A stretch of DNA of 42,072 bases from Eggerthellales bacterium (GTDB taxonomy: Bacteria; Actinomycetota; Coriobacteriia; Coriobacteriales; Eggerthellaceae), in assembly GCA_029219345.1 (NCBI GenBank), contig JAQXTF010000013.1, positions 1 through 42,072 on the forward strand. Direction: 5' to 3'. Numbering within the stretch: position 1 is the stretch's first letter; each line of letters opens with the position of its first letter. The notes under the pieces were generated by a model, which did not search any database, was not told where the DNA came from, and worked only from the letters and a program-made list of their open reading frames with translations. The translations under genes and the position numbers were made by a program. Positions 20,778-38,200 of the stretch are shown here, in pieces.

Positions 20778-21617
20778 CTACTGTTGGTAAGAAACGGTAG
20801 AGTTGTTAACCAGCCAGCCCAAAGCGGCTTCACGGCGGGCAAAAACAATAGCCTGATCGCCCATGCCCTGGTCTTCCAGCTGCTTGCGAATCTTGATCTT
20901 CTGGTCAAGATCGTCGCCGGGCATCTGAGCGGTAATCTGCTCGTCGGTTAAATCAAGGTTCAGATGGCTTGCCAGAGCGTCAATCGCGCAGGTGATGCGC
21001 AAAGCGTCATCGGGCATACCGGGAAGGCGGTCTTCCTCAGCGGGGTCTTCAACCAGGCGCTTTGCGATTTCCTTCAGCACCAGGTCGGGGAACTTGGGGT
21101 CATCCTTCTTCATATCGGGCAGGTTGAACTGAGCGGCCACGCCAGTGCGGAACTCTTCCACGGTAGTGGCAGGGCCGAATTCCTTCTGAACCAGCTCATC
21201 GGTGAGCTCGGGCTTAACCATGTACAGCATCTTCTCGATGGTAACCGTCATGGTCAGCAGGCTCATGCCGTTCATCTTGCCCATGGGCATCTTGATCATG
21301 GCTTTAACGTCGCGGGTCTCACCCACGCGCATGCCAATAATGGAATCGTCGAAAGCCTTGGGCATTTCGCCGGCACCCAGATGGTACAGAGAATTCGTCA
21401 AAATGAAGTGCTTTGCCAGGTTGCCGTCCATGCGTGCGTCTTCGGTGGTAACAACAATGTAGTCACCGGCCATGCAGGGACGATCTTCCTCCACTTCGTG
21501 GTACTCAGACAGAGGCTCCATGAGTTTCTCAATCTGCTGCTCAACAAGCTCAGGAGGAACCGGAGGCTTGGGCATCTTCATGGAAACGGGCTCATAAGAA
21601 GAAAGCGTGTATTGCAT
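20778..21617 (-). CDS. trigger-factor-like chaperone lacking the ribosome-binding domain
   Basis: 279 aa against about 430-450 for trigger factor. The N-terminal ribosome-docking domain with its GFRxGK signature is absent. Residues 18-135 match the FKBP-like prolyl isomerase domain (EEDRPCMAGDYIVV, GAGEMPKAFDDSIIGMRVGE). Residues 140-279 match the helical C-terminal chaperone arms (PELTDELVQKEFG, TVEEFRTGV, ITAQMPGD). GAGGGG precedes the ATG. It heads a four-gene operon, which suggests a dedicated chaperone for a partner encoded nearby rather than general nascent-chain folding. Confidence 0.78.
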   Translation of the reverse strand: MQYTLSSYEPVSMKMPKPPVPPELVEQQIEKLMEPLSEYHEVEEDRPCMAGDYIVVTTEDARMDGNLAKHFILTNSLYHLGAGEMPKAFDDSIIGMRVGETRDVKAMIKMPMGKMNGMSLLTMTVTIEKMLYMVKPELTDELVQKEFGPATTVEEFRTGVAAQFNLPDMKKDDPKFPDLVLKEIAKRLVEDPAEEDRLPGMPDDALRITCAIDALASHLNLDLTDEQITAQMPGDDLDQKIKIRKQLEDQGMGDQAIVFARREAALGWLVNNSTVSYQQ

Positions 21618-21847: not shown

Positions 21848-23341
21848 CTACAGGTCAAGATCTTCAATGCGGCGGCGCAGGTCGCGCTGGCGGGTGGAAA
21901 GAATCATGTTCTCGTTGTGCTCGTAATACGAGGCGCTGCCGTACTGGGCAATGTACTTGGCGGAATCAACGCGACTTGTCAGCTCGGTGGTGAACACCAG
22001 CATTTCCTGCTTGTCGCCAAAGGCGCCCTGCAGGAAGGCGAAGGCGTTAACCAGCCTGCTTTCAATCTCCTGGGTCTTAGGAGCAATGGCACCAACCATC
22101 TGGCCATAGAGAGCCTCAACGGCGCCAAAGCCTTCGGCGGAGCACACACGGGCCAGCTCGCCAAGCTGAGAGATAACCTCTTCTTCCTGGGTGCGCTTTG
22201 CCTTGGTGATGGTGCCGGCAGCCACCTGCATCTCCAGCCTGGACTGGCGCTCAATCACGCACTTGGCCAATGCCTCGGCGCTATCAGTGCCCTCTTCGGC
22301 AGCCTGAGCCTTCACTTCTCGCAGAACGTCGCGCAGGCTCACCATAACCTGGGTGTCCTGGTTCACGGCGCGCATGCCACCGCACAGGGAGTCCAGCATC
22401 AGGCCCACCAGGGACAGGCGCTCGTCGAACTCTGCGTTCTTAGCGCGCTCGCTCACCTTGGCAACATCTTCCTGACCATTCAGAATTTCTTCAATGCGAT
22501 AGTCCTCGCGGTACTTGTTGAACAGGTCGTAGTAAGCGGCAAACTCGCGGGCAATCTTCTCATTCTGCACGTACTGAATAATCAGATCGTAGTCCACGGT
22601 CTTACCCAAGCGCTCAAAAATGGTCATGATTTCAGACAAGTCGTCCCAGCCACGGGCGGTAACGAAGCTCTTGCCATCAAGGGTTGCCTCAACAACGTAG
22701 AAGCGGTCCTTCTTGATGGAAAGGAAGGTGGTCACAGCAGGATGCGTGCCCTTTGCGGCGGCGTAGGCCTTCCAGGCGTCCAGGTTGGGTTCCACGGCAA
22801 TGCGCTTCAGACGGTCGAGGGTAACAATGTCAAAGTCATGGACGCTCTTGTTGTACTCAGGGGGATTACCTGCAGTAACAACAATCCAGCCTTCGGGAAT
22901 CTGGTGACGGCCGAAGGTCTTGAACTGCAGGAACTGCAGCATGGAGGGATACAGGGTCTCAGACACGCAGTTGATCTCGTCCAGGAACAGAATGCCGCGC
23001 TCAACCTTGTGCTTGCGCATGTAATCGTACACGCTGGCCACAATCTCGCTCATGGTGTACTCGCTGGCTTCGTATTCGAAGTCGCCGTAGCTTTCCTTCA
23101 CAATGTAAGGCAGGCCCAAAGCGCTCTGGCGCGTGTGATGGGTCATGGAGTAGCTCACCAGGCCCATTTCCAGCTCGACGGCAATCTGGCTCATGATAGC
23201 GGTCTTGCCAATGCCCGGCGCGCCCACCAGGAAGATAGGGCGTTGGCGGGAAACGTCCAGCAACGGACGACCCTGGTCATCGGTGGCCAAATAAGCCTCA
23301 ATAGTGTCTTTCACCTGCTGTTTTGCTTTATTAATATCCAT
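21848..23341 (-). CDS. MoxR-family AAA+ ATPase
   Basis: 497 aa. Walker A GAPGIGKT is at residues 40-47, Walker B ILFLDEIN at 117-124, and sensor 1 in IVVTAGNPPEYN, as in MoxR proteins such as CbbQ, NorQ and RavA. These act with VWA-domain partners to remodel or load metal into target enzymes. The C-terminal 200 residues are helical and not assigned. AGAAGGAG precedes the ATG. It follows the VWA gene by 45 nt, the expected partner arrangement. Confidence 0.9.
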   Translation of the reverse strand: MDINKAKQQVKDTIEAYLATDDQGRPLLDVSRQRPIFLVGAPGIGKTAIMSQIAVELEMGLVSYSMTHHTRQSALGLPYIVKESYGDFEYEASEYTMSEIVASVYDYMRKHKVERGILFLDEINCVSETLYPSMLQFLQFKTFGRHQIPEGWIVVTAGNPPEYNKSVHDFDIVTLDRLKRIAVEPNLDAWKAYAAAKGTHPAVTTFLSIKKDRFYVVEATLDGKSFVTARGWDDLSEIMTIFERLGKTVDYDLIIQYVQNEKIAREFAAYYDLFNKYREDYRIEEILNGQEDVAKVSERAKNAEFDERLSLVGLMLDSLCGGMRAVNQDTQVMVSLRDVLREVKAQAAEEGTDSAEALAKCVIERQSRLEMQVAAGTITKAKRTQEEEVISQLGELARVCSAEGFGAVEALYGQMVGAIAPKTQEIESRLVNAFAFLQGAFGDKQEMLVFTTELTSRVDSAKYIAQYGSASYYEHNENMILSTRQRDLRRRIEDLDL

Positions 23342-23386
23342 GATCTCTCCTTCTTGAGATGCGGCTTGATACCAAATTTCAGTGGG

Positions 23387-25267
23387 TTACTGCAGATACG
23401 ATACGAGCGAGCGCTCAACGGGTTTTCGCTTGATGTGCATATTGGCAGCCTTGGCCTCAGACACTTCCAGCTCGCGCTCGTCCAAGATGAGCTTCAGCGC
23501 CCAAGGCGGAACCTCCGGGTCGCTGTAGCCATCGTCCAAGAACACGAACACGGTGTCGTACTTGGGCTGCTTGCGGGGGAACAGGCCCTGGCCGTCGGTG
23601 AAATACACCATGCCGCGCAAGTCGGTGAACTCGCCCTTTTCGCACAGCAGGTTCACGTACTCAAACACAGGGCGGAAGTCGGTGCCGCCAAAACCGCGCA
23701 GCTCCATATCCTTCAGGTAAAGGTCAAGATCATCCAAGGATTCAATCTTCTTGTCGCTTTGAATCTTGGCGTCGCACTGAATAATGTGGATGTTCACCCT
23801 GCTATGGAAGCTCTCAGACTGGCACAAGATGTTGTAGGTCTTGCGCACGAAGGCCTGTACCATTTCGCCCGAGCACGATTCCGACGTGTCAATGGCAATG
23901 ACGAAATCGTGGATGCCGCGGGCGTCCTTGTACTCCAAGGGCTCAATAAGGGGCATGTTGCCGTAGCGTTCCATGCCGAAGGTGTAATAGATGTAGTCGA
24001 ACTCGTCGTCATTCACCATCATGCGCTCACGCAGCACGGCAAAGCGCTTCAGGAAGGCCTCATAGTTCTGCTTCTCGCGGTTCACCGCTTTCAGCTGCGC
24101 AATAAGATTGCCCGTCTCGTCACCGCGCTCGGCGATGGTGGCCTCAATCTCAATCTGCATCTGCTCAGCCAGCTCTTCCCAAGAGGCAGCCAGATCTTCT
24201 TCGGTCATCTCATCGCGTGAAGAGGCTTCAAGCTCCTCGTTCTTCTCAGGGTGATTGACCTCTTCTTCGTACTCGTTGTCGGAGAACCGTTGTTGCTGCT
24301 GGCTGTCATTATCGCCGGCGTTGTTCCCCTGCATGGAGTTGATCATGTCCTGCATTTGCTCGGGGGTCATGCCCTGAGTGGTGTTCAGCTCGCCGCCCTC
24401 GTGCTCTTCCGTTTGCTGGCGGGCCACCGATGCGGCGCCCTTGCCTTCGCTGATGCAATCATCGGCGTACCACAGGCCATGGGAGTCGTGGCGAAACATG
24501 GGAGCCAGAGAGCGCAAGTCGGCGCGGTTGCCCTCATTGGAGAAAAAATGATACAGGCGCTCTGCGGTAATAACGCCTCCCACCTGAGCGCGAATGATTT
24601 TCAGGGCGCGGGAGCAACGACCGTCGTAGTTGCTGGGGAACGTCTCGCCCACCAAATCAATAAGCATGCTTTCAATAGCAATGTCACACGCCACATCCCA
24701 TGGTTCGCGCATAACCGAGTACAGCATGAAGGGGTGGCGGAAAATGCAATGGAACAGGCAGTGAATCACATCGCGCACCACCTCGTTGGGGGAAAGCTTG
24801 AAGCGATCAACCACGTATTCAGGGTCGTAGTACATCTTGATGCCGTCGCTGCACATGCCGAAGATGTCAAAGCTGGGCACCAAGGGCATGCGCCACAAGG
24901 CGCGATCCAGGAAGCGGAAGCGCACCGCTAACGAGGCGCGGGCCTCTTCCAGAATCTCGTTGGCAATGGGACAGCACTTCTCATAACGCTGGCGCTTGCG
25001 CTCCATGCGATCTTCCGTGGTAAGCGACAGCCTCTCATTGACACCCCAGGAATGGCCCAGGCCCATAAGGTCGCGAAGGGCTGCCTGGTCCTGCACGCCC
25101 TCCCCTGCCGTAAAGGTATCCTGATAATCCTGCGCCAGTTGCTGTCGCAGGGCAAGTTGTTCCTGGTGTCTCTTGTATTCCGGCGTGGTGTCCAGGCCGG
25201 CCTTACGACGGGCTTCCTTTTGCTGGAGCAGCACGTCGTGTTCATCGATAGGAGTCAAGTCTTTCAT
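23387..25267 (-). CDS. DUF2201-type protein with metallopeptidase-like and VWA-like domains
   Basis: 626 aa. The N-terminal half carries an H-x3-H stretch (VIHCLFHCIFRHP, His169, His173, His178) like the putative metallopeptidase domain of DUF2201. A low-complexity acidic and Gln-rich linker spans about 285-380. The C-terminal VWA-like domain starts VIAIDTSESCSG with the MIDAS pattern D-T-S-x-S at 460-464. It has no signal peptide. VWA proteins of this kind pair with MoxR ATPases. It begins 11 nt after the LRR gene with an AGGAG site. Its target is unknown. Confidence 0.85.
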   Translation of the reverse strand: MKDLTPIDEHDVLLQQKEARRKAGLDTTPEYKRHQEQLALRQQLAQDYQDTFTAGEGVQDQAALRDLMGLGHSWGVNERLSLTTEDRMERKRQRYEKCCPIANEILEEARASLAVRFRFLDRALWRMPLVPSFDIFGMCSDGIKMYYDPEYVVDRFKLSPNEVVRDVIHCLFHCIFRHPFMLYSVMREPWDVACDIAIESMLIDLVGETFPSNYDGRCSRALKIIRAQVGGVITAERLYHFFSNEGNRADLRSLAPMFRHDSHGLWYADDCISEGKGAASVARQQTEEHEGGELNTTQGMTPEQMQDMINSMQGNNAGDNDSQQQQRFSDNEYEEEVNHPEKNEELEASSRDEMTEEDLAASWEELAEQMQIEIEATIAERGDETGNLIAQLKAVNREKQNYEAFLKRFAVLRERMMVNDDEFDYIYYTFGMERYGNMPLIEPLEYKDARGIHDFVIAIDTSESCSGEMVQAFVRKTYNILCQSESFHSRVNIHIIQCDAKIQSDKKIESLDDLDLYLKDMELRGFGGTDFRPVFEYVNLLCEKGEFTDLRGMVYFTDGQGLFPRKQPKYDTVFVFLDDGYSDPEVPPWALKLILDERELEVSEAKAANMHIKRKPVERSLVSYLQ

Positions 25268-25278
25268 AATGGCATCTC

Positions 25279-27666
25279 CTACAAACTGAAATCGATACCG
25301 CCAAGGGAACCACCCGAAAGACGTTTGCGCAGTTCAAGAAGGCATGCTGTCTTTTGGGCCTCTCCGGCGCCCAGGGAATTGTCAAGTTCGCGCTGCACGT
25401 GGCGCATGTCAATAAAGCCCCACTCGTGAAGCTGCAGCAGCGCTTCAAGGTTGCTTTTCTCGGCAAAGTAGCTCACCACCGCCTGGGCCTTGCGGGTGAA
25501 GGTTCCCTCATACAATTCGCGGCAGCGCTTGCACAGGCGCACCGGGTTTTTCAGGCGCGCGTAAGCGGACTGAGCGAATTCGGGAATGGTGGTGGCGCAA
25601 GAAACCCAGGTGTCGTAGTACTCAAAGTTGAACTTGGTTTTCTTATCGTTGGTTTCGAAAAGCGGCATCATAGAACGATAGCGGCTGGTGTACTCGGGCA
25701 TAATCAGATGTGCCTCACGGGTACCATCCACCTCTTCCGCGAAGGCCAGATGGAGCACATTTACCGTACGTTTGGTGGAAAGAGCGCCTATGCAGATGCT
25801 CTTGATATGGTCATGCAAATACAGCTCGTCCATGCCAATGGAGCCGCAGAAAGACTGGTTGTTCAGCTGGGTCACGGCTTCGGGTATGCGCACAATGTGA
25901 TCGGGACCCAAATACAGCAGCACCGCATCGCCGCCATCTTGCGCGCCACCGCGCTGGCACAGAAGGCCGTTTTCAATATAGAAGTGCTGGTTGGCGGGGT
26001 CCAAATCCAGCGACTCCAGGGGCTCGCCGGCGGCCAAAGAATTATCTCCCTGCACCAGCAAAGCATTTTCACCAATCTCGGTTACGCTGGCAGAGATGCG
26101 CAGGCGCCTCACGGCAGTATCCAAGAAGGCCTTGGCGCCAATGCGGCGAAGAGTGCTGGGCAGCTCGGCGGTATGCAGGCCCTTGCAGCCGCGGAATGCG
26201 TCGTCGCCAATTTCCTCTACGCCTTCTGGCACCGAAATGAATTGCAGAGCGCGATGACGCTTGCAAGCGTTCGGGGCCACCGCGCGGGTTCCCTCGGCAA
26301 TCTGATAGGTCATGATTTGGCCGATAAGCTCCACGAAAGTGCGACCCATATATACACCGCCCCAGCCATCAATGCGCAACTGATTTTGGTTCTCACCAGG
26401 CAAAACACTGGGGAATACCCTTATGGTGCCCTGGGAGATATTCTCCTGCACGGGCGTGCGGTCAAAGGCGCCCTGACCCAACCATTCCAGGCTGTTAGGC
26501 AGCACCGCTTTTTTCACGCCTGAAGAGGAAAACGCCTCTTCGCCCACGGAACGTGCCGAGGCGGGAAGCACGATTTCCGACAGGCTCGCGCAGAAAAAGA
26601 AGGCTTTTTCGCCAATGAATTCCAAGGTTTGGGGCAGCTGGACCAGCTTCAAAGACGTCTTGGCGAAAGCCAAGCGGCCAATGCCCTTCAAGCCTTCCGG
26701 CAAGGTGATGCTGCTCAGACTCTTCATGGAGTCAAAAGCGCGATCGGCAATGTAGCGGCAGCCCTCAGGCACATCGTAATGGCTCACGGGAACTACCAGA
26801 CGCACCAAAACGGTGCCATCCTTGGAAAATACCGCCAAACCATCGGTGGAAAGAGCCTCATTTGCTGGGTCAACAGAGATGCGCTCCAGCTCCTTAAGGC
26901 CAAACTCCGCAAGGTCGAACTCTCGCACCCGCGGGCCAAAGGCAAGCTCCTCAACAGAGGCGCCCATGAAAAGCTTGGCCTCGGCAGAAACCACCGGAGA
27001 ATTCACCGTTACCCGCCCAATGCGATTACAACGGGCAAACACGCCCGAGCCAATCTGCTTCAAATTGGAAGACAGGCGAACACTTTGCAAGCTGGTACAC
27101 TTTTCAAACAGGCGGTGGCCCAGCACCTCAACCGTATCGGGCATAACCACTGCCTCCAGCTCTTCATGTTCGAAAAACAGGCTGGAATCAAGAGCAGTTA
27201 CTTCATTTCCCCTGATGCGATTGGGAATTTCAACAAAATGGCTCGAACCGTCATAGGCCACAATGCGAACGGTTCCGCCCACACGAATAGTGTACGTGAA
27301 CGAATTGAATCGCAATTCAACTTGTTCACGGGCACGTTCTTCAATCATGCGTTGGCGCTCTTCATCAAGGCGCTGGCGCTGCTTGGCAACAGTACGCACC
27401 TCTTCAGGCACGCTCTCATCGTTCATGTTGAAGTTGGGGTCGCTCAGATACTGCTCCGTCATGGCTTCTACATGGTTTAGGCGAAGCGATGCCCGCGGCG
27501 CCTCCGCAGCGGCATCGGAAGGTCTCGAAAAATTACTGTTTTGCAACCATTCCAACATGGCCCATTCATCTTCTTCCTCAACGGAGGGGTTGGGCAGCGC
27601 GGAGTTTCCTTCCCACCGCGCTGCTAACCAAGGAGGAATGTTCTTTCCCCACTGCCCCTGAGTCAT
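25279..27666 (-). CDS. BspA-like leucine-rich-repeat protein, apparently cytoplasmic
   Basis: 795 aa. A short N-terminal region is followed by a charged helix (about residues 85-120, rich in Arg/Glu). Many LRR_5-type repeats follow, of the form I-x-x-x-A-F-x-x-C-x-x-L-x-x-V-x-L-P (examples IADRAFDSMKSLSSITLP, IGDDAFRGCKGLHTAELP). The C-terminal 100 residues contain LCKRC and an ankyrin-like helical stretch. No signal peptide or anchor is present, unlike secreted BspA proteins. The start at 27666 is the first ATG after the MFS stop, 7 nt away; the longer frame would overlap that gene. It is first of the LRR-VWA-MoxR trio. Confidence 0.85.
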   Translation of the reverse strand: MTQGQWGKNIPPWLAARWEGNSALPNPSVEEEDEWAMLEWLQNSNFSRPSDAAAEAPRASLRLNHVEAMTEQYLSDPNFNMNDESVPEEVRTVAKQRQRLDEERQRMIEERAREQVELRFNSFTYTIRVGGTVRIVAYDGSSHFVEIPNRIRGNEVTALDSSLFFEHEELEAVVMPDTVEVLGHRLFEKCTSLQSVRLSSNLKQIGSGVFARCNRIGRVTVNSPVVSAEAKLFMGASVEELAFGPRVREFDLAEFGLKELERISVDPANEALSTDGLAVFSKDGTVLVRLVVPVSHYDVPEGCRYIADRAFDSMKSLSSITLPEGLKGIGRLAFAKTSLKLVQLPQTLEFIGEKAFFFCASLSEIVLPASARSVGEEAFSSSGVKKAVLPNSLEWLGQGAFDRTPVQENISQGTIRVFPSVLPGENQNQLRIDGWGGVYMGRTFVELIGQIMTYQIAEGTRAVAPNACKRHRALQFISVPEGVEEIGDDAFRGCKGLHTAELPSTLRRIGAKAFLDTAVRRLRISASVTEIGENALLVQGDNSLAAGEPLESLDLDPANQHFYIENGLLCQRGGAQDGGDAVLLYLGPDHIVRIPEAVTQLNNQSFCGSIGMDELYLHDHIKSICIGALSTKRTVNVLHLAFAEEVDGTREAHLIMPEYTSRYRSMMPLFETNDKKTKFNFEYYDTWVSCATTIPEFAQSAYARLKNPVRLCKRCRELYEGTFTRKAQAVVSYFAEKSNLEALLQLHEWGFIDMRHVQRELDNSLGAGEAQKTACLLELRKRLSGGSLGGIDFSL

Positions 27667-27673
27667 TTTTGCC

Positions 27674-28882
27674 CTATTCGGCAGCCAGCTCTGCTGCGCG
27701 CTCTGCCTCAAAGTCATGAACCTTGACAAACATAAGCAGCACGGCGGCGGCAATGCAGCAGCCAGCAATCACGTAAGCAGCGACAGTCCAGCCAAAGGCA
27801 TCGGCAACACCACCAATGATGGGGGCGCCCAGCAAAATGCCGGTGTTGAAGCCGATGTTCACAACGCCCATGGCCACACCAGCCAGCTCAGGCTTCTTGC
27901 AGGTCTGAGCGGTCATGGTCCACAGAACGCAGGGGAAACCAGCGTCCACGAAGGGATACACAATGGTGAATGCCAGAATGAAGGTGGGCTGTTCCATGGT
28001 CATACCGAAAACGGAAGCAACGCCATAGCTCACCAGCATCGCAGCGCCGAAAACGCGGCGATTCTTGATCTTGTTCAGCGCGGCGCCAATGACAATAGCG
28101 GCAATAACGCCACCCAGGCTGAAGTAGCCAACCCACATGTTGGCTTCGTCCTCGGCCCAGTTGAAGTTAAAGGCCCAAGCGGTGGCAATCCAGTTCACAA
28201 AGCCAAAGCAGCCAATGCAGAACAGCATGGTGACCAGAGCCATCAGCCAGGTGGAAGCGGAGCTCATGCCTTCCTTCAAAGACACGTCTTCGCTCTCTAC
28301 GTCTGCATAGTTCTCTTCGGGGCGAGGAGTCTTGATGCAAACGATGTAGAACACCAGGGCGATAACGCAGGCAGCCAGACCAAAGATCCACATGCCCTGC
28401 CAGCCGAAGTTAACGGTAACAACGCCGGCAACGAAGAACATGACGGCCTGAGCGCACATCTGATAAGCAGCCCAGATGGACATGGGAAGGCCACGCTTGG
28501 CTTCGGGGAACCACATGGAGATAAGGGAAGGCCCAATAACGCCAATAAGGCCCACGCCAATGCCTTCAACAACGCGGCTTGCCATAAGAACGGGAACAGA
28601 CGCGGTCACAAGGCCCATGATGGAGCCCAAAATGGCGCAAATCAGAGCGATGATGCCGCCCTTCTTAGCACCCAGTTTGTTCAGCACGATAGATGCGGGG
28701 ATGGCCATAACAATGCCAACCAAAGAGAACAGGGAGCTCAGCCAACCAGCAGCGCTCATGTCAATGCTGAAGGCATCCATGAGAACAGTCATGCAAGGAG
28801 CAACCTTGTTCTGAACCAATGCCAGCGAAACGCCGGCGAAAATCGTTGCGATAGCAACAATCCATGCACGTTTAGTATTCAT
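27674..28882 (-). CDS. MFS transporter, paralogue 2
   Basis: 402 aa, 12 helices, CynX/NimT-like branch of the major facilitator superfamily. It is clearly related to the next MFS gene upstream: both share a QNKV segment in helix 1, IPAS followed by KLGAKK, RVxEGxGVGxI, and FPxxKRGLPM. It probably imports or exports an organic anion. The ATG at 28882 is chosen because the hydrophobic first helix follows directly; the ribosome site is weak. It lies 195 nt downstream of paralogue 1 and 7 nt before the LRR gene. The substrate is unknown. Confidence 0.87.
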   Translation of the reverse strand: MNTKRAWIVAIATIFAGVSLALVQNKVAPCMTVLMDAFSIDMSAAGWLSSLFSLVGIVMAIPASIVLNKLGAKKGGIIALICAILGSIMGLVTASVPVLMASRVVEGIGVGLIGVIGPSLISMWFPEAKRGLPMSIWAAYQMCAQAVMFFVAGVVTVNFGWQGMWIFGLAACVIALVFYIVCIKTPRPEENYADVESEDVSLKEGMSSASTWLMALVTMLFCIGCFGFVNWIATAWAFNFNWAEDEANMWVGYFSLGGVIAAIVIGAALNKIKNRRVFGAAMLVSYGVASVFGMTMEQPTFILAFTIVYPFVDAGFPCVLWTMTAQTCKKPELAGVAMGVVNIGFNTGILLGAPIIGGVADAFGWTVAAYVIAGCCIAAAVLLMFVKVHDFEAERAAELAAE

Positions 28883-28904
28883 TCTTCGAACTCTCATTCG
28901 ATCA

Positions 28905-28942
28905 ATTGGCTGCCGACCTCAAGTCACGCGCACGCAGCCAAT
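28905..28942. other. 9-bp inverted repeat in the leader of MFS paralogue 2
   Basis: ATTGGCTGC at 28905-28913 is mirrored at 28934-28942, 20 nt apart, just upstream of the start at 28882. It may be an operator or an mRNA leader hairpin. Confidence 0.4.
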
Positions 28943-28986
28943 CTTGGATAGCTTACGCATGAGCAAAACGCCCATACTCGTGAATT

Positions 28987-29016
28987 GGGCGCACAGGACG
29001 TGAGTCCCATGCGCCC
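28987..29016. other. symmetric stem-loop between the two MFS genes
   Basis: GGGCGCA (28987-28993) and GGAC (28996-28999) pair with GTCC (29004-29007) and TGCGCCC (29010-29016), leaving a 2x2 internal loop and a GTGA tetraloop. There is no T-run, so it is more likely an mRNA processing or stabilising structure than a terminator. Confidence 0.5.
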
Positions 29017-29077
29017 TCAGCACGCTTTTATCAAGCATCGCCTTTAAACGGGCGATATTTCAAAGCAACAATTTTGC

Positions 29078-30295
29078 TTATTCCTCACCAATGTTGTACT
29101 GCTTGACGAAGATAAAGATGATAGCGCCAACAGCAGCAGCGGCAGCCAGGGGAATAGTAGCGGTTGCCCAACCGTAGTTTTCAATGAAGAAACCGGTGAT
29201 CGGGGGGCCCAGCAGAGTACCGATGTTCAGACCAACGTTCAGAATACCGATAGCGGTAGGACCATCTTCCAGCTTCTTAGCAGTGGTAGGTGCCAAGGTC
29301 CAGTAAACCGTGGGGATAACACCTTCCAGGAAGGGGTAAATGATAACGAAGGGGATGAGCATGCCGGGGTCGTCCATGCGGAAGCAGAACCACAGAACAA
29401 TAATGTACAGAGCAAAGCCCAGGGTGCCAACCCAGTGACGCTGCTTGGGACGAATCTTGTTCAGCAGCCAGCCGATGAAGATAACCATGGGGATCTCGAT
29501 GGCGTACAGGATGGAAACGTACAGGTTGGAGGTTTCCATACCGTCGTTGAAGAAGACCTGATCCCAGTACAGGGAAATGTAGGTAGCAAAACCGAAGCAG
29601 CAGAAGGTGAAGATCAAGCCAGCCAGGGTGATCAGCCAAGTAGATGCAGAGCTGAAGCCAGCAGCCAGGTTGAAGTCGCCTTCTTCTTCGCCAATTGCAT
29701 AGTTAGGCTCGTCCTCAGTGCCCGCGGGGTCGCGAACCTTCCAGAGGTACAGAACCAGAACAACAACAGCGAAGATGGTGGTGAACCACCAAACGCCCTG
29801 CCAACCGCCCCAGGCAACCAGGCCAGCGGAGATAAAGAACAGCAGGGTCTGAGAGCACATCATCCAAGAACCCCACAAGCCCATGGGCAAGCCACGCTTC
29901 TCAACGGGGAACCATTCGGAGATGACAGCAGGACCAACAACAGCGATCATGCCTACGCCAACGCCTTCAAGAACGCGGGTGATCATCAGCATGGTCAGGT
30001 CGGTTGCAAATGCGCCGATGGCGGAGCCAGCAGCAGCACATGCCAGAGCAATAACGCCAATCTTCTTAGCGCCCAACTTGCGCATAAGAACAGAGGCAGG
30101 GATGGCGGTAACCATACCCATAATAGTGAAAACAGAGGTCAGCCAGCCAGCATCGGTTTCGCCGATGTTGAAGGCGGTCATGATCTCCAGCATAACCGGC
30201 GGAACCTTGTTCTGAACGTTAGCCAGAGCAAAACCACCGAAGAATGCAATGATGACGATAAGCCAAGCAACAGTTGACTTTTGTTGTTTAGTCAT
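29078..30295 (-). CDS. MFS transporter, paralogue 1
   Basis: 405 aa, 12 helices, same branch as paralogue 2. Helix 1 region reads FALANVQNKVPPVM, then GAKKIGVIALA, RVLEGVGVGMIAVVGPAVISEWFPVEKRGLPMG. The ATG at 30295 follows GGAGGAGGG at good distance, and the longer frame has no site. It is first of the MFS-MFS-LRR-VWA-MoxR series. Similar permeases accompany molybdenum-dependent reductases in gut Coriobacteriia, suggesting it moves the substrate or product of the enzyme at 31766-34108. Confidence 0.87.
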   Translation of the reverse strand: MTKQQKSTVAWLIVIIAFFGGFALANVQNKVPPVMLEIMTAFNIGETDAGWLTSVFTIMGMVTAIPASVLMRKLGAKKIGVIALACAAAGSAIGAFATDLTMLMITRVLEGVGVGMIAVVGPAVISEWFPVEKRGLPMGLWGSWMMCSQTLLFFISAGLVAWGGWQGVWWFTTIFAVVVLVLYLWKVRDPAGTEDEPNYAIGEEEGDFNLAAGFSSASTWLITLAGLIFTFCCFGFATYISLYWDQVFFNDGMETSNLYVSILYAIEIPMVIFIGWLLNKIRPKQRHWVGTLGFALYIIVLWFCFRMDDPGMLIPFVIIYPFLEGVIPTVYWTLAPTTAKKLEDGPTAIGILNVGLNIGTLLGPPITGFFIENYGWATATIPLAAAAAVGAIIFIFVKQYNIGEE

Positions 30296-30477
30296 TGAAC
30301 CCTCCTCCAAAACCATTCAGTTTGTAAAGGGCAACATGTGACTCGCATTAAAGACGCTTTGGCGTATCATGTCCAGGCGCCTCGCGCTGCGACCAATAGC
30401 ACAGCGACCATTCGAATCATGTGATGCCAGAATGAGAGGTGCAGAGGCTTTCCTTCCCCTTTTGAATGAAAACCTCA

Positions 30478-30520
30478 AGCGGCCGGCCTTCCTAGGAAAA
30501 AGGTCGGCCGCTCTTTTTTA
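30478..30520 (+). terminator. plus-strand intrinsic terminator without an upstream plus-strand gene
   Basis: A 13-bp stem with one mismatch (arms 30478-30490 and 30500-30512) is followed on the plus strand by CTTTTTTATTTG. On the minus strand the following bases are TGAGGTTTTC, a poorer tail. The genes on both sides are minus strand, so it may end an unrecognised plus-strand RNA or act weakly on minus-strand readthrough. Confidence 0.65.
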
Positions 30521-30533
30521 TTTGAGCGTTAGA

Positions 30534-30579
30534 CGATAGGCACCAAATCTATCGCCCACTGAGAGCGATAGCTGCTATC
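30534..30579. promoter_or_regulatory. cluster of CGATAG half-sites
   Basis: CGATAG at 30534-30539, CTATCG at 30549-30554, and GATAGC-T-GCTATC at 30567-30579 form two successive inverted pairs. They lie between the zinc-ribbon gene end and the MFS upstream region and could bind a dimeric regulator. The stretch 30296-30696 holds no other gene I can support. Confidence 0.35.
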
Positions 30580-30696
30580 TCCACGCAAAAAGTTGGTTTG
30601 GACGGAGGTCAATCAAACACTTTTCTCGAAAAAACACAGTATATCCCCTCTCAACCGCATGAATTACAACGCAGGAGAACTAGGGCTTACTTACCC

Positions 30697-31056
30697 TTAG
30701 GCTTCAGCGGATTCCTCTTCCGTGGGGAAAAGGTAACCGCACTTTTTGCAATCTGCGCGAGAGCCCAGCACATATTTGCCACAGGAGGGGCATATCTTAA
30801 TACGACCCTTCTTAAGACAGTCCTTGCACAAGGGCTTCTCCAAAGGCGTGCAGAGGAAGCACGCCTTTTTAGATTTTTCGTTTAGATAGGTTCTGTTTGC
30901 ATATTTCGCATGATCAATGGGGGTGCCGCATTTCTTACATACCTCCCATTCGAAGGGGTTATAGCGCCCGCAGACAGGGCACTCAACCGGGTAGTTGATC
31001 GGAGCCTTTTTATGGCAACGGTCACACCAGGGGCTGCATGTACGGCAATTTGGCAT
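30697..31056 (-). CDS. multi-zinc-ribbon protein
   Basis: 119 aa with many paired cysteines: Cys4/Cys7, Cys11/Cys14, then CPVCG, CKKCG, CFLC, CKDC, CPSCG and CKKCG. This fits several zinc ribbons in series. No enzymatic domain is visible. It could bind nucleic acid or protein, or serve as a metal-linked accessory factor. AAGGA lies 9 nt before the ATG. It is 41 nt behind the small zinc-ribbon gene and is the last member of the molybdoenzyme series. Confidence 0.8.
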   Translation of the reverse strand: MPNCRTCSPWCDRCHKKAPINYPVECPVCGRYNPFEWEVCKKCGTPIDHAKYANRTYLNEKSKKACFLCTPLEKPLCKDCLKKGRIKICPSCGKYVLGSRADCKKCGYLFPTEEESAEA

Positions 31057-31097
31057 AGATAATGATCCTTACAATCAAACAGAAGCGTACGAATAAT

Positions 31098-31352
31098 TTA
31101 CGCAGTAGGAGCCTTGGGAGCAGTAGGAGCAGCCGGCTTAGGTGCGCCAGGGCCAGCCATGGGACGAGGTGCGCCAGGTGCGCCAGGAGCGCCTACAGCG
31201 GGAGCGCCTGCAGCGGCACCGGAAGCAGCAGCTTCCCTGGATGCTTCCAGGTCAGCGCCGCACTTCTGGCATACTTCATTATCGGGCTTGTTGAAGCCGC
31301 CGCACTCGATGCACTTCAGTGCGGTAGCAGCATTAGCGGGTCTGTAACACAT
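31098..31352 (-). CDS. small zinc-ribbon protein with Ala/Pro/Gly-rich tail
   Basis: 84 aa. A single zinc ribbon (CIECG ... CQKCG, residues 14-33) is followed by an alanine-rich linker and a disordered tail with repeated GAPGAP and KPAAPTAPKAP. AAAGGAG gives a strong ribosome site. It sits just after the terminator at 31381-31411, so it is expressed by readthrough or from its own promoter. The role is unknown; its place beside the Fe-S subunit suggests an accessory to the molybdoenzyme. Confidence 0.78.
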   Translation of the reverse strand: MCYRPANAATALKCIECGGFNKPDNEVCQKCGADLEASREAAASGAAAGAPAVGAPGAPGAPRPMAGPGAPKPAAPTAPKAPTA

Positions 31353-31380
31353 AACATTCTCCTTTGTGTATTCGAAAAAA

Positions 31381-31411
31381 GATGGTGCCCCACCCCAAGC
31401 GGGGCACCATC
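31381..31411 (-). terminator. strong terminator after the ferredoxin-like subunit
   Basis: Perfect 11-bp stem (31381-31391 and 31401-31411), 9-nt loop, followed on the minus strand by TTTTTTCG. It separates the oxidoreductase genes from the two zinc-ribbon genes. Confidence 0.9.
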
Positions 31412-31421
31412 CGGTAGAAAC

Positions 31422-31763
31422 TTACTGCTCGGGAACGTAGATCCAGGAGCGGGGGGTTTCCTTGGCCATCTCAGCCAGTTCGTCAACGGTGCCGTACTTC
31501 ATGCAGGCAGCCTGGCAGTGATGAACGCAAGTGGGGAGCTTGCCCATTTCAACGCGGTCCTTGCACAGGTCGCAAAGGCTGGTGAAAACGGGGAGCATGG
31601 TGTACTCGAACTTGCCGTTGGGCATCAGACGAGGGCCATCGGTGAAGCAGATAACACCAGGGGTCTCGTGGTTCCAGCCGTGCTCTACCTTGCAAGCGGT
31701 TGCGCAGGAGTAGCAACCGGTGCACCACTGGTAATCAATAAAAAGTCCGTACTTATCAGCCAT
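31422..31763 (-). CDS. two-cluster [4Fe-4S] ferredoxin-like electron-transfer subunit
   Basis: 113 aa, shorter than DmsB/NrfC-type subunits (about 200 aa). The first cluster motif is C14-x2-C17-x2-C20-x3-C24. The second is C64-x2-C67-x11-C79-x3-C83, with an extra Cys87; Cys39 is also free. It appears to carry two clusters rather than four. No signal peptide is seen. It starts 2 nt after the molybdoenzyme stop, its AAAGG site overlapping that stop, so the two proteins should be made together. It likely hands electrons to the molybdenum subunit. Confidence 0.87.
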   Translation of the reverse strand: MADKYGLFIDYQWCTGCYSCATACKVEHGWNHETPGVICFTDGPRLMPNGKFEYTMLPVFTSLCDLCKDRVEMGKLPTCVHHCQAACMKYGTVDELAEMAKETPRSWIYVPEQ

Positions 31764-31765
31764 GA

Positions 31766-34108
31766 TTATTTAGCCTTTCCAGTCGTAACAACCAGCTCAG
31801 AAACGCTCATGTCGTTTTCCTTGGTCACGGGGTACAGCTTGCAAATCTGGTTTGCATAGGGAGCGCCGTACAGGGTAGGACCGGTTACGCCCTGAACAGT
31901 CAGGTTGTTGATGTTGCAGTCGAATACGCCGTACAGGTTGGGAGCTGCGCCCTCAGTCTCGGGGAACCACCAGCCGTGCTCTGCACGTACGGTGTCCTTC
32001 TTCAGAGAGTTGTTGATGCGAACACGCTGCTTGCACTTGCCGCGCATGTTCTCAATCCAGATCCAGTCGCCCTCATGAACGCCCAGCTCAGCAGCGAGCT
32101 CGGAGTGCAGGTCTACCAGCGGATCGGGATGGTTTGCACGCAGGCGAGGAACCTGACGCTCTTCGGAGTGGAAGTATTCCCAAGTACGAGCACCAGTGGT
32201 CAGGATGTAGGGATACTCTTCCATCAGTTCGGGAGTAGAAACGGGGGACTCAGGCGGCTCTTCGAAGTAGGGCAGCGGATCGAAGCCCCATGCCTCGAAC
32301 AGAGTGTTGTAGAGTTCGCAACGACCAGTGTTGGTGTTGAAGCCGGGGTAACCGTCGTCACGCAGCCAGCCCAGTTCGTACTTGCGATAAGCCCAGTCAT
32401 CAGGCCAGTCGATAACCTTCTCACGCAGTTCCTGGAAGGTTTCGTCGGTCTTGTGAGGCCAACCAGCATGGAAGCGGTTACCAGCCTGGATCCACCAGGT
32501 CATCATTTCCTCGTCGGTCTCCCAGGGGAAGCGCTCGGGGTGCAGGTACTTGCCCAGTTCAAGGATGATCTGCTCGTCGGACTTTGCCTCGTAGTAGTCA
32601 GCAACCTTGACGATGGAGCGCAGGGGCCACCACCATACACGAGCGGAGTTACGCTCTGCAGACATGCCGCAGGGAAGAACGATGTCAGCGCAAGCAATTG
32701 CGGTGGGGGTCATGAATACGTCAACAACAACGTTGTACCAAACAGACTTCATTGCACGGTAAACGCGAGGAGCGTCAGCAGCCATGTTGGCAATGGGGTT
32801 GGTGGACTGAATGAACTGCATACGAATGGGGTAAGGCTCGCCAGTTTCGATAGCGTTCAGAACGGTGTCGCCATTAGCGGTGGGGTCGAAGCCCAGAGCA
32901 TGCAGAGGAGAGGTCTCAACACCGAGCATCTTGCCCAGCATCTCGTCAGAGAGGAACCACATGCCGCAGCCGTAGGAGTCAGGAATGTCGTAAGCGCAAC
33001 GAGGGATCATCATGCCGCCGGGGACGTCGATGTCGCCGCAGATAGCGCCGATGGACAGCAGAGCCTGAGCGGTGGGGATACCGCAAACAGACTGGTCAAC
33101 CTTCAGACCCCACTGAACAGTGGAGGGCTTGCCGGAAGCGAAGGCGCGTGCAGCACCGCGGATGAGCTCGGGGTCAACGCCAGCGATCTTGCCAGCAACC
33201 TCGGGAGCGTACTCGCGAGCGCGCTCAGCCAGCTCGTCGAAGCCATAGCACCAGTACTCAACGAATTCGTGATCGTACAGATCCTCTTCGATGATAACGT
33301 TGATCATGGACAGAACAACAGCAGCGTCGGTACCAGGACGAACCTGCAGCCAGTACTCAGCCTTGGAGGCCAGCCAGGTGCAAGAGGGATCCAGAACGAT
33401 CAGCTTGGTGCCGCCCTGCTTCATAACGTCAACAATCCAGTGACCGAAGAAGCCGTCGCCGTTGGAGACCAGAGCGTTGTTACCAACGTTCAGGATGTAC
33501 TCGGGGTACACGTACTCGGGGTCAGCGTAGCGCTTCTCCAGGTGCTGGGACATGTCGGCTACGAAGAAGTCGCCCATGAAGCAGTGACCGATGGTGGTAC
33601 GGGGCAGGTAGCAAGAGTCGCCGGAGAGGAAGCCCAGAACGAAGTTGGGGGAGTCAAAAGCAGCGTAGCTCAGGTAAGGGGTCTGCCAGCAGATGTTACG
33701 GCCGGTACCCTGCATGGAAACGATGGACTCGGGGCCGTAGTCACGCCAGATCTCACGTACGTGAGCAGCGATGTCTTCGTAAGCCTCTTCCCAAGTGATG
33801 CGCTCCCACTTGTTCTCGCCGCGTTCGCCAACGCGCTTCAGGGGGTACTTCAGACGATCAGGATGATAGAAGGTCTCAACTACGTCCAGACAACGCATGC
33901 AGAGACGACCCTGATTGTAAGGAGACAGGGGGTCGCCTTCGACCTTTTCTACCTTGCCATCCTTGGTGTAGTAAAGAACAGAGCAACCGTTGTGGCAACC
34001 AGGAGCAGTCCACATGTTGGTACGAGTTACGGTGTACTCGCCTTCCTGCCATTGCCAATCGGTCTTGTAGACGTCTTTGTTAACGCCTTCGAGTTCGTTT
34101 GTAAGCAT
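31766..34108 (-). CDS. molybdopterin (bis-MGD) oxidoreductase of the DMSO reductase superfamily
   Basis: 780 aa catalytic subunit. The Fe-S region has Cys38-x3-Cys42-x27-Cys70-x2-Cys73; the canonical first cysteine is Ala35, so cluster ligation is unusual. Molybdopterin-binding segments include WERITWEEAYEDIA, GTGRNICWQTPYLSYAA, YILNVGNNALVSNGDG, KLIVLDPSCTWLASKAEYWLQVRPGTDAAV and ICGDIDVPGG, with a C-terminal dinucleotide domain. The molybdenum ligand may be Ser165 or Cys166 in SGDSCYLPR; this is inferred from position. No Tat signal is present, suggesting cytoplasmic action. The ATG at 34108 has AAAGG 9 nt before it. Acetylene-hydratase, transhydroxylase and catechol-dehydroxylase-like families are possible relatives; the substrate is unknown. 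Confidence 0.9.
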   Translation of the reverse strand: MLTNELEGVNKDVYKTDWQWQEGEYTVTRTNMWTAPGCHNGCSVLYYTKDGKVEKVEGDPLSPYNQGRLCMRCLDVVETFYHPDRLKYPLKRVGERGENKWERITWEEAYEDIAAHVREIWRDYGPESIVSMQGTGRNICWQTPYLSYAAFDSPNFVLGFLSGDSCYLPRTTIGHCFMGDFFVADMSQHLEKRYADPEYVYPEYILNVGNNALVSNGDGFFGHWIVDVMKQGGTKLIVLDPSCTWLASKAEYWLQVRPGTDAAVVLSMINVIIEEDLYDHEFVEYWCYGFDELAERAREYAPEVAGKIAGVDPELIRGAARAFASGKPSTVQWGLKVDQSVCGIPTAQALLSIGAICGDIDVPGGMMIPRCAYDIPDSYGCGMWFLSDEMLGKMLGVETSPLHALGFDPTANGDTVLNAIETGEPYPIRMQFIQSTNPIANMAADAPRVYRAMKSVWYNVVVDVFMTPTAIACADIVLPCGMSAERNSARVWWWPLRSIVKVADYYEAKSDEQIILELGKYLHPERFPWETDEEMMTWWIQAGNRFHAGWPHKTDETFQELREKVIDWPDDWAYRKYELGWLRDDGYPGFNTNTGRCELYNTLFEAWGFDPLPYFEEPPESPVSTPELMEEYPYILTTGARTWEYFHSEERQVPRLRANHPDPLVDLHSELAAELGVHEGDWIWIENMRGKCKQRVRINNSLKKDTVRAEHGWWFPETEGAAPNLYGVFDCNINNLTVQGVTGPTLYGAPYANQICKLYPVTKENDMSVSELVVTTGKAK

Positions 34109-34209
34109 ACTCGATAACCTTTCATTCCTTTGGTAAAATGAAAAATGCATGCGAGGCTCTACCTTTTGGGGTGGGGCCTCCCTTGGCTTTTACAAGCCTG
34201 TTTGGGGAC

Positions 34210-34380
34210 TTACACGCCCTGAGACGGATCCCAGCGACGGGGCTTGGTCCAGTCACGGCCAGCCTTGTCGGTAGCATTCTGCTGCCAAGCCTTCTTGTTC
34301 TTCTCAGCGTCAGCCATATGAGCGTCCTTGCGGCTCTGCTGGAAGTCCTTGTTGTAAGTCTGATCACGTTCGTCTGCCAT
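34210..34380 (-). CDS. 56-aa charged protein leading the molybdoenzyme operon
   Basis: Highly charged and without cysteine or membrane helix: MADERDQTYNKDF, then a Lys/Ala/Asp-rich helix, ending WTKPRRWDPSQGV. The ATG at 34380 has GGGAGG 7 nt upstream, one of the best ribosome sites here, which argues that it is real. About 100 nt separate it from the oxidoreductase gene. I do not recognise it; a regulator, chaperone-like adaptor or third subunit are all possible. Confidence 0.65.
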   Translation of the reverse strand: MADERDQTYNKDFQQSRKDAHMADAEKNKKAWQQNATDKAGRDWTKPRRWDPSQGV

Positions 34381-34908: not shown

Positions 34909-35751
34909 ATGACTCAGGGGAAGCTCTTCGAAAGAGACTGGCGTTCACTTCTTGAGGCCATCTTAAGAATCAACTCAGCCACCGACATCGCTCTTCTTCA
35001 GCGCATTTCCCTTGAGTGTTTACGCGCGTTGGTTCCTTCCGATCAGTACGCCTTCTTCATTTCCCGCACCGGCACCCGTGAAGCACTGGGTGAGCCCTAT
35101 ATCATGGGCGTTGAAGCGAAATACCTTGATAAGTTCATGGTCGGCGACTACAACACCGGCGAAGACGCCGAAACATTCTTTTCAGGCCGCCACATTCTGA
35201 GCCACAACACTGAAACTTCTCGCGATAGCGATCAAATCCCCGAGGATTATTTGGTAGAAACCCGCATTTACAAGGAAATCTACGCGCCCCAGGGCATTCA
35301 TTATGGCATGCGCTCGTCTTTGATGTTCCGCCGCAAGTTCGTGGGCTCGCTGGAGCTCTTCAACAGCAAGAAGCGCGGCGACTACACCGACAAGCAGCTG
35401 GAGATCATGACGCTTTTGGCTCCCCATATTGCAAACAGGCTGGGCCTTCTCATGGATGCCGAGTCGCGCAGCAACTCCTCCCCCACCCTTGTTCCCGAGG
35501 AAATCAAGGAACTGTTCCATCTGACGGACCGCGAGGCCGAGATTGTGTCCATGCTTTCCACCGGCGCCGAAGATCACACCATCATCAACGAGCTGTACAT
35601 TTCCGGCTCCACGTTTAAGAAGCACCTGTACAACGCCTACAAAAAGATGGGCGTAAGCAGCCGCACCCAGCTTTTCAACACGCTTTTGGCCGCCAAGAGT
35701 AACAGCGCGAAAAAGACAAAGCGCCCAAGGCCCAACGGTAATCTCTCATAA
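34909..35751 (+). CDS. LuxR-family transcriptional regulator with N-terminal sensor domain
   Basis: 280 aa, soluble. Residues 15-190 form a GAF-like sensor (ATDIALLQRISLECLRALVPSDQYAFFI, YGMRSSLMFRRKFVGSLELFN). A LuxR/GerE helix-turn-helix occupies about 203-262, with LTDREAEIVSMLSTGAEDHTIINELYIS and the recognition helix STFKKHLYNAYKKMGVSSRTQL. GGGGGA lies just before the ATG. It is divergent from the molybdoenzyme operon, the classic position for its regulator; ligand sensing by the GAF-like domain is inferred. Confidence 0.88.
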   Translation: MTQGKLFERDWRSLLEAILRINSATDIALLQRISLECLRALVPSDQYAFFISRTGTREALGEPYIMGVEAKYLDKFMVGDYNTGEDAETFFSGRHILSHNTETSRDSDQIPEDYLVETRIYKEIYAPQGIHYGMRSSLMFRRKFVGSLELFNSKKRGDYTDKQLEIMTLLAPHIANRLGLLMDAESRSNSSPTLVPEEIKELFHLTDREAEIVSMLSTGAEDHTIINELYISGSTFKKHLYNAYKKMGVSSRTQLFNTLLAAKSNSAKKTKRPRPNGNLS

Positions 35752-38164: not shown

Positions 38165-38200
38165 AAGGGTCCCCAATCCTTGAGTTCAACTGCATTTTTG

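Follow-up and report, generated by a model that had tools for sequence, protein, structure and literature searches.

An LRR, VWA and MoxR-like ATPase trio linked to molybdoenzyme genes in Eggerthellaceae

Three neighbouring genes of an Eggerthellales bacterium encode an LRR protein, a VWA protein and a MoxR-like AAA+ ATPase (the trio) next to a molybdoenzyme. The trio probably assembles or reactivates the molybdenum enzymes to which it is linked, because two unrelated enzyme lineages, referred to here as class A (that of the present cluster) and class B, acquired it independently. The arrangement is found in Eggerthella-family gut bacteria, and the trio is of an ATP-driven, chaperone-like kind. 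The window analysed is the whole 42,072-nt stretch of contig JAQXTF010000013.1 (assembly GCA_029219345.1, positions 1–42,072). A sequence-only reading of this DNA had suggested that the trio may mature or remodel the molybdoenzyme, or may simply happen to lie beside it. The trio proved to be more than a chance neighbour: the pairing is kept across genera, has survived relocation of the MFS genes and occurs in two independent lineages.

The molybdoenzyme and the organization of its gene cluster

Every gene named in the sequence-only reading was found on the minus strand within positions 21848–34380, with a LuxR regulator (34909–35751) on the plus strand. The cluster starts with p56 (34210–34380), a charged 56-aa protein upstream of the molybdoenzyme that matches no family in a Pfam scan and has homologues in the same position in other genera with a class A locus. 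The bis-MGD molybdo/tungsto-enzyme (31766–34105; PF00384 at 76.5 bits, PF01568 and PF04879) lies in an ORF of 794 aa (31766–34150), of which the ATG at 34105 is the likely start. It carries no TAT signal, and its best solved relative is acetylene hydratase (PDB 2e7z, 287 bits). The four [4Fe-4S] cysteines and the invariant Cys180 (794-aa ORF numbering) are intact; the column of the tungsten ligand is ambiguous, as Cys180 is invariant family-wide and Cys190 is present in all class A copies and in few others. These sequence features suggest a cytosolic enzyme that resembles acetylene hydratase and the catechol dehydroxylases. Its codon usage is close to that of EF-Tu, with an index of 0.73 against EF-Tu as the only reference and a background median of 0.35. 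A ferredoxin-like small subunit of 113 aa with 10 Cys (31422–31763, minus strand) is encoded 2 bp downstream. The features that define the soluble catechol dehydroxylases of the Gordonibacter type (PMC7028382) were all found, namely a bis-MGD enzyme that lacks a TAT signal, a small 4Fe-4S partner and an MFS neighbour. A TorD/NarJ chaperone gene is absent from the operon; the genome contains three PF02613 genes, none of them on this contig.

Downstream of the ferredoxin gene, a strong 15-bp hairpin (31380–31412, minus strand) precedes the genes for zinc-ribbon protein 1 (31098–31352; MCYRPA...CxxC) and the Cys-rich zinc-ribbon protein 2 (30697–31056). These are followed by MFS permease a (29078–30316; PF07690, 171.9 bits) and MFS permease b (27674–28897; PF07690, 153.9 bits), all on the minus strand. 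A hairpin of unrelated sequence occupies the equivalent site in the 7 other Eggerthellaceae class A loci that were read. Transcription as a single uniform unit is made less likely by this conserved hairpin 3´ of the ferredoxin gene and by the 398-bp gap upstream of the MFS pair. The LuxR regulator is missing from other class A loci, which rules out a single operon that includes it; the same-strand gene set stood and the membership of the regulator did not. Nor is the whole set supported as one system, since the regulator is not conserved, the MFS pair is confined to the class A lineage, the hairpin separates the molybdoenzyme and ferredoxin genes from the rest, and many trios are found elsewhere. 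Conversely, the cluster extends downstream beyond position 21848, where a PPIase, a methyltransferase and an orphan protein, d190, follow and are also present in related loci.

Sequence features of the trio and its downstream neighbours

The LRR protein (25279–27666, minus strand) contains BspA-type LRR_5 repeats (PF13306, 186.5 bits). Its full ORF (25279–27768) opens with a TTG that falls within the MFS gene, and the likely start is the ATG at 27666, which gives 795 aa. From this start the protein has neither a signal peptide nor an anchor, and a BspA surface protein is therefore ruled out. The LRR protein is thus placed in the cytosol. It is the least conserved member of the cluster, with 38–47% identity compared with 87–92% for the enzyme, which speaks against the adaptor role suggested in the sequence-only reading; its helical C-terminal tail is conserved.

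The VWA protein (23387–25267, minus strand) was assigned by Pfam and by motifs and comprises DUF2201_N and DUF2201 regions, with the VWA domain at residues 456–593 of 626 and no effector C-terminal to it. The MIDAS residues D, S and S are kept in 70/70 homologues and read DTSES in the window copy. Both His residues of the HxxxH motif of DUF2201_N are retained, and the position of the catalytic Glu is not Glu among the common residues seen, which rules out an active peptidase. A profile search against PDB sequences gave no match for this protein. The predicted model (pLDDT 64, pTM 0.44) matches the VWA fold and is unreliable in fine detail, including the AAA+-pore finger that was sought; the fold search retrieved generic VWA domains alone, one of which is the MIDAS domain of Midasin.

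The ATPase gene (21848–23341, minus strand) adjoins the VWA gene with a gap of 45 bp, and the pair is found again in relatives. The protein passes the AAA_5 model (31.9 bits; cut-off 22 bits) and contains Walker A (GAPGIGKT) and Walker B (LFLDE) motifs, of which the K, D and E residues are kept in 76/76 homologues. The canonical MoxR model AAA_3 does not match it and bpMoxR scores 19.5 bits, below the cut-off of 27 bits, so that it is classed as MoxR-like only; the former label of MoxR ATPase holds for a MoxR-like AAA+ protein and not for a canonical MoxR. Its comparison with MoxR-VWA chaperones of metalloenzymes is nonetheless apt, given intact Walker and MIDAS residues in every copy and the precedent of CoxD/CoxE (PMC4240915).

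Three further minus-strand genes follow the ATPase. The first encodes a trigger-factor-like PPIase (20778–21617), which matches TIGR00115 at model positions 106–284 only, with 77.5 bits against a cut-off of 180.2 bits. Because the ribosome-binding N-domain is absent and the score lies below the cut-off, a true trigger factor is ruled out; the genuine tig is located elsewhere in the genome (260 bits). Its position after the ATPase is conserved in class A, and PPIases are found again in class B. The SAM-dependent methyltransferase (20030–20761) is a separate neighbour in the window and in class A, and is fused to the C-terminus of the MoxR-like protein in classes B and D; the window protein is 37–43% identical to the fused domain. 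The 190-aa d190 (19447–20019) lies downstream of the methyltransferase, in the same place in several class A loci. Pfam, NCBIfam and PDB fold searches returned no match for it, the last with a mediocre predicted model, and a TorD-like chaperone is unsupported by them.

Conservation and independent recurrence of the linkage

The orthologous class A cluster is found with its order kept in at least five genera of Eggerthellaceae, including Adlercreutzia, Gordonibacter and Raoultibacter, which suggests more than a chance arrangement. Of the genomes sampled, eight carry enzyme and trio, three have the enzyme without the trio, 138 have neither, and the trio alone was seen in none. In Gordonibacter the MFS pair has been relocated upstream, and the trio still lies beside the enzyme. 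Among the termite-gut relatives the enzyme cluster is present and no trio was found, so the trio is dispensable there. The module occurs in 10/396 genomes sampled across Actinomycetota, all of them Eggerthellaceae, and was not seen in those Syntrophomonas and Dehalococcoidia genomes that encode related enzymes.

About 20 loci of the remote class B lineage show the order molybdoenzyme, small subunit, two small genes, LRR, VWA and MoxR(-methyltransferase fusion). Monophyly of classes A and B is rejected on the MoxR tree (p-AU 1e-4) and on the molybdoenzyme tree, built without Dadh, Hcdh, Cadh, Dodh, Cldh and acetylene hydratase sequences (p-AU 1e-10); the pairing of enzyme and trio thus arose more than once. 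In class B the Fe-S cysteines are lost in the enzyme and the small subunit alike.

The trio could instead be a general AAA+/VWA/LRR remodeller with varied clients, found near molybdoenzymes through shared regulation or redox conditions. Of 76 sampled trio loci, 48 lie outside the molybdoenzyme clusters of classes A and B, to which the module is thus not confined, and the genome of the window itself has at least five further trio copies. E. lenta-type (class C) trios adjoin an SMC-like ATPase in place of a molybdoenzyme, a class D trio in one genus lies among HypF/HypD hydrogenase-maturation genes, and other surroundings include PEPCK, asparagine synthase, UvrB and RuvB. These contexts and the termite-gut relatives fit a general remodeller. 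Against it, the two independent pairings involve the same kind of enzyme plus small subunit in identical order and strand, and none of the 62 other Mo-family genes in the control loci (498 kb) has a trio gene beside it. The sequence-only reading had held that trios mostly without the enzyme would speak against it; the raw count is of that kind (48/76), whereas the orthologous class A trio is found only together with the class A enzyme (10/10 distinct loci). We consider a general remodeller unlikely, though a serious alternative.

A second alternative retains the linked enzyme as client and assigns the trio to reactivation or quality control, by CbbQ/CbbO-like removal of an inhibitor or a damaged cofactor or by disassembly, rather than to cofactor insertion. 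The CbbQ/CbbO pair takes part in RuBisCO activation (PMC9976466), and the absence of the trio from termite-gut relatives is consistent with an auxiliary role. The class B client has no remaining Fe-S sites, and Fe-S insertion therefore cannot be the shared job. The observations do not distinguish insertion from reactivation; the HypD/HypF neighbours of class D lean toward maturation, and a role confined to reactivation appears improbable.

A third alternative, which is very improbable, is that the trio forms an immunity-like ternary conflict system of the MoxR-vWA type that has come to lie among metabolic genes, the LRR protein acting as its sensor. The published layout of MoxR and vWA plus a third component per locus (PMC7159879, PMC8195603), the fast evolution of the LRR protein, the several paralogues per genome and the class C loci, whose copies adjoin the SMC-like ATPase and, in one genome, a YhcG nuclease, agree with it, but no effector follows the VWA domain, Pfam scans gave no effector-associated domain, PADLOC models matched neither VWA nor LRR, and the MoxR-like protein and methyltransferase only weakly, and the class A trio is tied one-to-one to a slowly evolving enzyme with PPIase and methyltransferase neighbours. 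The texts of both papers also do not contain DUF2201.

Proposed function and comparison with known systems

We therefore favour, with a probability of about 0.5, a dedicated AAA+ chaperone module of LRR, VWA and MoxR-like proteins with the PPIase and methyltransferase, which would mature, remodel or reactivate the adjacent enzyme and its ferredoxin subunit. This builds on the gene linkage and its independent recurrence, on ATPase and MIDAS motifs that are intact, on a VWA protein lacking the peptidase Glu and a PPIase lacking the ribosome-binding domain, and on the fusion of methyltransferase and MoxR-like protein in relatives; from these observations we infer physical interaction, client identity, order of events and chemistry as follows. 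The trigger-factor-like protein, having lost its ribosome-binding domain, would hold the apo-enzyme. The MIDAS site of the VWA protein would then engage the apo-enzyme, with the LRR protein as a scaffold or recognition arm. ATP hydrolysis by the MoxR-like ring, relayed via the VWA protein, would open the enzyme so that the cofactor can be inserted, or an inhibitor or damaged cofactor expelled, and the methyltransferase may finally modify the client or cofactor.

More speculatively, and with considerable doubt, bis-MGD enzymes served by such a MoxR-like/DUF2201-VWA/LRR/methyltransferase/PPIase machine in place of TorD-type chaperones may form a new class of molybdoenzyme systems. The class B complex, which would have kept its Mo site and lost the Fe-S clusters of both enzyme and ex-ferredoxin, would work without the usual electron relay, through non-redox chemistry or another electron route; class B makes enzyme function without an iron-sulfur relay a testable question. 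Eggerthella-group molybdoenzymes act on dietary polyphenols and neurotransmitters, and obtaining their activity outside native hosts is a recognised obstacle. An AAA+ module found with two independent molybdoenzyme lineages provides concrete candidate factors for active enzyme. If the chaperone module is real, MoxR/VWA metalloenzyme chaperones would extend to the DMSO-reductase superfamily. LRR and methyltransferase parts were not found in the literature searched on these chaperones, and no paper was found that treats MoxR together with DUF2201 or with Eggerthella lenta. The client of CoxD/CoxE is the Mo-Cu CO dehydrogenase, which belongs to the xanthine-oxidase family.

CoxDE acts on this molybdenum enzyme, and mutants yield an apo-enzyme with an incomplete metal site (PMC4240915). 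CoxD/CoxE of Oligotropha share with the window AAA+ and VWA genes adjoining a molybdoenzyme, but are described as membrane proteins, and neither an LRR protein nor DUF2201, a PPIase or a methyltransferase is reported with them (PMC4240915). NorQ/NorD, CbbQ/CbbO and RavA/ViaA are MoxR/VWA pairs that activate metalloenzymes (PMC9976466), and metal insertion by NorQ/NorD needs the MIDAS site and ATP hydrolysis (PMC9976466, PMC13036017). A MoxR-class AAA+ protein with a VWA partner is common to these pairs and the window (PMC9976466, PMC13036017), whereas their clients are different, they have no LRR protein and the window ATPase is missed by AAA_3. In E. lenta, active dopamine dehydroxylase requires the linked accessory genes DadhD-I (PMC11887054), which are alike in accompanying a molybdoenzyme and differ in encoding a helicase-like protein, a TorD-like chaperone and membrane ferredoxins, with no AAA+/VWA/LRR set described. 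Acetylene hydratase 2e7z aligns along most of the length of the window enzyme, although the similarity is remote and the window enzyme has MFS and zinc-ribbon neighbours. The window differs from the soluble Gordonibacter-type catechol dehydroxylases of the gut by its extra zinc-ribbon proteins, and PMC7028382 does not mention MoxR; common to both are a cytosolic bis-MGD enzyme, a small 4Fe-4S partner, an MFS transporter and acetylene hydratase as the nearest characterised relative (PMC7028382, PMC11585353).

Gene layout and the molybdoenzyme

The cluster is encoded on the minus strand of the window. From 5´ to 3´, it comprises genes for p56, a 56-aa charged protein (34210–34380), a cytosolic bis-MGD molybdo/tungsto-enzyme (Mo; 31766–34105), a 113-aa ferredoxin, two zinc-ribbon proteins, two MFS permeases (MFSa and MFSb), an LRR_5 protein (25279–27666), a DUF2201/VWA protein (23387–25267) and a MoxR-like AAA+ ATPase (21848–23341). 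The last three are referred to as the trio. Each gene named in the sequence-only reading was found in place. Beyond that list, a trigger-factor-like PPIase (20778–21617), a SAM methyltransferase (20030–20761), a 190-aa orphan (19447–20019) and then a Bcr/CflA-type MFS gene are located downstream. The spacing is tight for Mo-ferredoxin (2 bp), MFSb-LRR-VWA-MoxR (7, 11 and 45 bp) and PPIase-methyltransferase-orphan (16 and 10 bp), whereas wider gaps of 398 and 230 bp separate zinc ribbon 2 from MFSa and MoxR from the PPIase, respectively. Upstream, the same strand encodes the anaerobic ribonucleotide reductase NrdD (35846–38176).

A strong hairpin (31380–31412) is located 3´ of the ferredoxin gene, in the ferredoxin-zinc ribbon gap. 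Hairpins of unrelated sequence occupy the same intergenic site in seven other Eggerthellaceae loci of class A, which comprises the window-type enzyme cluster and its orthologues; this gap holds a hairpin of differing sequence in L048, L050–L052, L054, L058, L080 and L081. Most of these hairpins lack a T-run, which suggests that the element may set mRNA ends or stability and keep Mo-ferredoxin in excess. Attenuation, or stabilisation of the mRNA at its 3´ end, is its candidate role.

The best solved relative of the enzyme is acetylene hydratase 2e7z (287 bits), followed by thiosulfate reductase (207 bits). Acetylene hydratase is also the nearest relative of the catechol dehydroxylases themselves, and the soluble Gordonibacter dehydroxylases are described with the same layout as the present cluster: a cytosolic enzyme, a small 4Fe-4S partner and MFS neighbours (PMC7028382). 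No TAT signal was found by reading of the enzyme sequence. All four N-terminal [4Fe-4S] cysteines are kept, and Cys180 (794-aa ORF numbering; motif SCYxPR) is invariant throughout the sampled family. By eye, this residue would align with the position that ligates Mo in formate dehydrogenase H. The codon index to EF-Tu is 0.73 compared with a background median of 0.35, which suggests that the enzyme is abundant in the cell. Its identity between genera (87–92%) exceeds that of every neighbouring gene.

Association of enzyme and trio in relatives

Orthologous class A clusters, based on our own ORF calls, were found in Adlercreutzia faecimuris, Gordonibacter sp. Marseille-P2775 and 28C, Candidatus Gordonibacter avicola, Raoultibacter timonensis and further Eggerthellaceae. 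Gordonibacter sp. Marseille-P2775, 28C and Raoultibacter carry both MFS genes upstream of p56, and LRR-VWA-MoxR-PPIase still follows zinc ribbon 2 in genomes in which the pair has moved. Among 149 related genomes, 8 contain both the class A enzyme and the class A trio, 3 the enzyme alone and 0 the trio alone (Fisher p 3e-11, uncorrected for relatedness). The three enzyme-only genomes, termite-type Coriobacteriales bins by our reading of habitat, contain the Mo-ferredoxin-zinc ribbons-MFS genes; no VWA match was found in these genomes, which are only ~80% complete. A locus of Syntrophomonas sp. UBA5288 (Bacillota; L059, 10004–13528) encodes Mo (61% identity), ferredoxin and both zinc ribbons in unchanged order and has no trio, which indicates that zinc ribbons and enzyme stay together across phyla.

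Class B, a remote second molybdoenzyme lineage with the trio, was found when the regions around other VWA homologues were retrieved. Approximately 20 loci, some cut at contig ends, share a common order and strand of Mo, small subunit, b91, b116, LRR, VWA and MoxR. Trigger-factor and FKBP-type PPIases are usually encoded nearby, and a methyltransferase is fused to the MoxR C-terminus. The stand-alone methyltransferase of the window is 37–43% identical to this fused domain and was therefore marked as part of the module. Groups were fixed from gene neighbourhood ahead of tree building. The Mo tree, a quick tree, places classes A and B apart with many trio-less Mo enzymes in between and rejects an A+B grouping (p-AU 1.1e-10); the MoxR test, on a careful tree, agrees (p-AU 1e-4). 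Several rows sit on long branches. As read from these sequences, class B is a second, independent enzyme-trio pairing. LRR, VWA and MoxR genes were absent from 40 control loci around other Mo-family members (62 Mo genes, 498 kb), whose windows extend only ~5 kb on each side, so that a trio farther off could escape.

In every aligned copy of the class B enzyme, all four [4Fe-4S] cysteines are replaced (by S, Y, N and N), and 92 of the 108 family-invariant residues are retained, including Cys180. Nearly all cluster cysteines are also gone from its ferredoxin-derived partner, in which mostly 2 Cys remain versus 8–10. This predicted Fe-S loss (L094, L101, L103, L110, L111, L114, L116–L120, L122, L125, L130, L149, L151) is coordinated across both subunits and conserved in about ten genera.

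Trio loci away from molybdoenzymes

The proposal that the trio acts on the molybdoenzyme is partly supported. Class A conservation, class B recurrence and the trio-less control Mo genes link the two, whereas no Mo gene was seen at 43 of 76 distinct MoxR loci. Neighbourhood co-occurrence likewise holds within class A, but class A or B accounts for only 28 of the 76; another 5 have some Mo gene nearby. The association is nevertheless better supported than the sequence-only reading could show. The window's own genome (1.9 Mb) carries at least five additional VWA/MoxR copies (contigs C12, C23, C41, C48, C113 and C121), often with LRR, some on short contigs and with no adjoining Mo enzyme seen. In class C, the E. 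lenta-type trio loci, the LRR gene is divergent from VWA-MoxR, and a 552–571-aa SMC/RecN-like ATPase is encoded nearby in 14 loci (L132, L134–L143, L146, L095, L096). These loci may put the module to another use. The presumed E. lenta locus further encodes a nuclease of the YhcG family and a regulator of the MerR-TipAS type. In one genus (L098, L099, L100), LRR-VWA-MoxR(-methyltransferase) lies in line between HypF/HypD hydrogenase-maturation and indolepyruvate-oxidoreductase-like genes. Matches among 396 sampled Actinomycetota genomes were confined to the window's own family, and the search of relatives placed the module in other families of the order as well.

Proposed function of the module

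All copies retain intact Walker and MIDAS residues. The structure model of the VWA protein has low confidence (pLDDT 64), and the VWA fold was nonetheless recovered. DUF2201_N keeps both His residues of HExxH; the Glu is missing, which makes a peptidase role unlikely. The PPIase aligns to the trigger-factor model only at positions 106–284, which leaves it without the ribosome-binding domain of the N-terminus; the genome encodes a full trigger factor at another site. No TorD-type chaperone was found in the operon, and the genome carries three.

Taken together, these features make the module look like a device that assembles or repairs the linked enzyme after translation. With no Fe-S sites in class B clients, Fe-S insertion cannot be the shared task; the likelier tasks would be to insert the Mo cofactor, to open the conformation or to take out a blocked cofactor. 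Within the cluster, conservation is lowest for the LRR protein, which fits poorly with the idea of an adaptor specific to a client as highly conserved as this enzyme.

In NorQ/NorD, CbbQ/CbbO and RavA/ViaA, a MoxR ATPase and a VWA partner drive metal insertion or enzyme activation (PMC9976466), and a twisting model has been described for MoxR/VWA action (PMC13036017). We rate the module as a candidate variant among the MoxR/VWA metalloenzyme chaperones, with CoxD/CoxE as the nearest precedent acting on a molybdoenzyme (PMC4240915).
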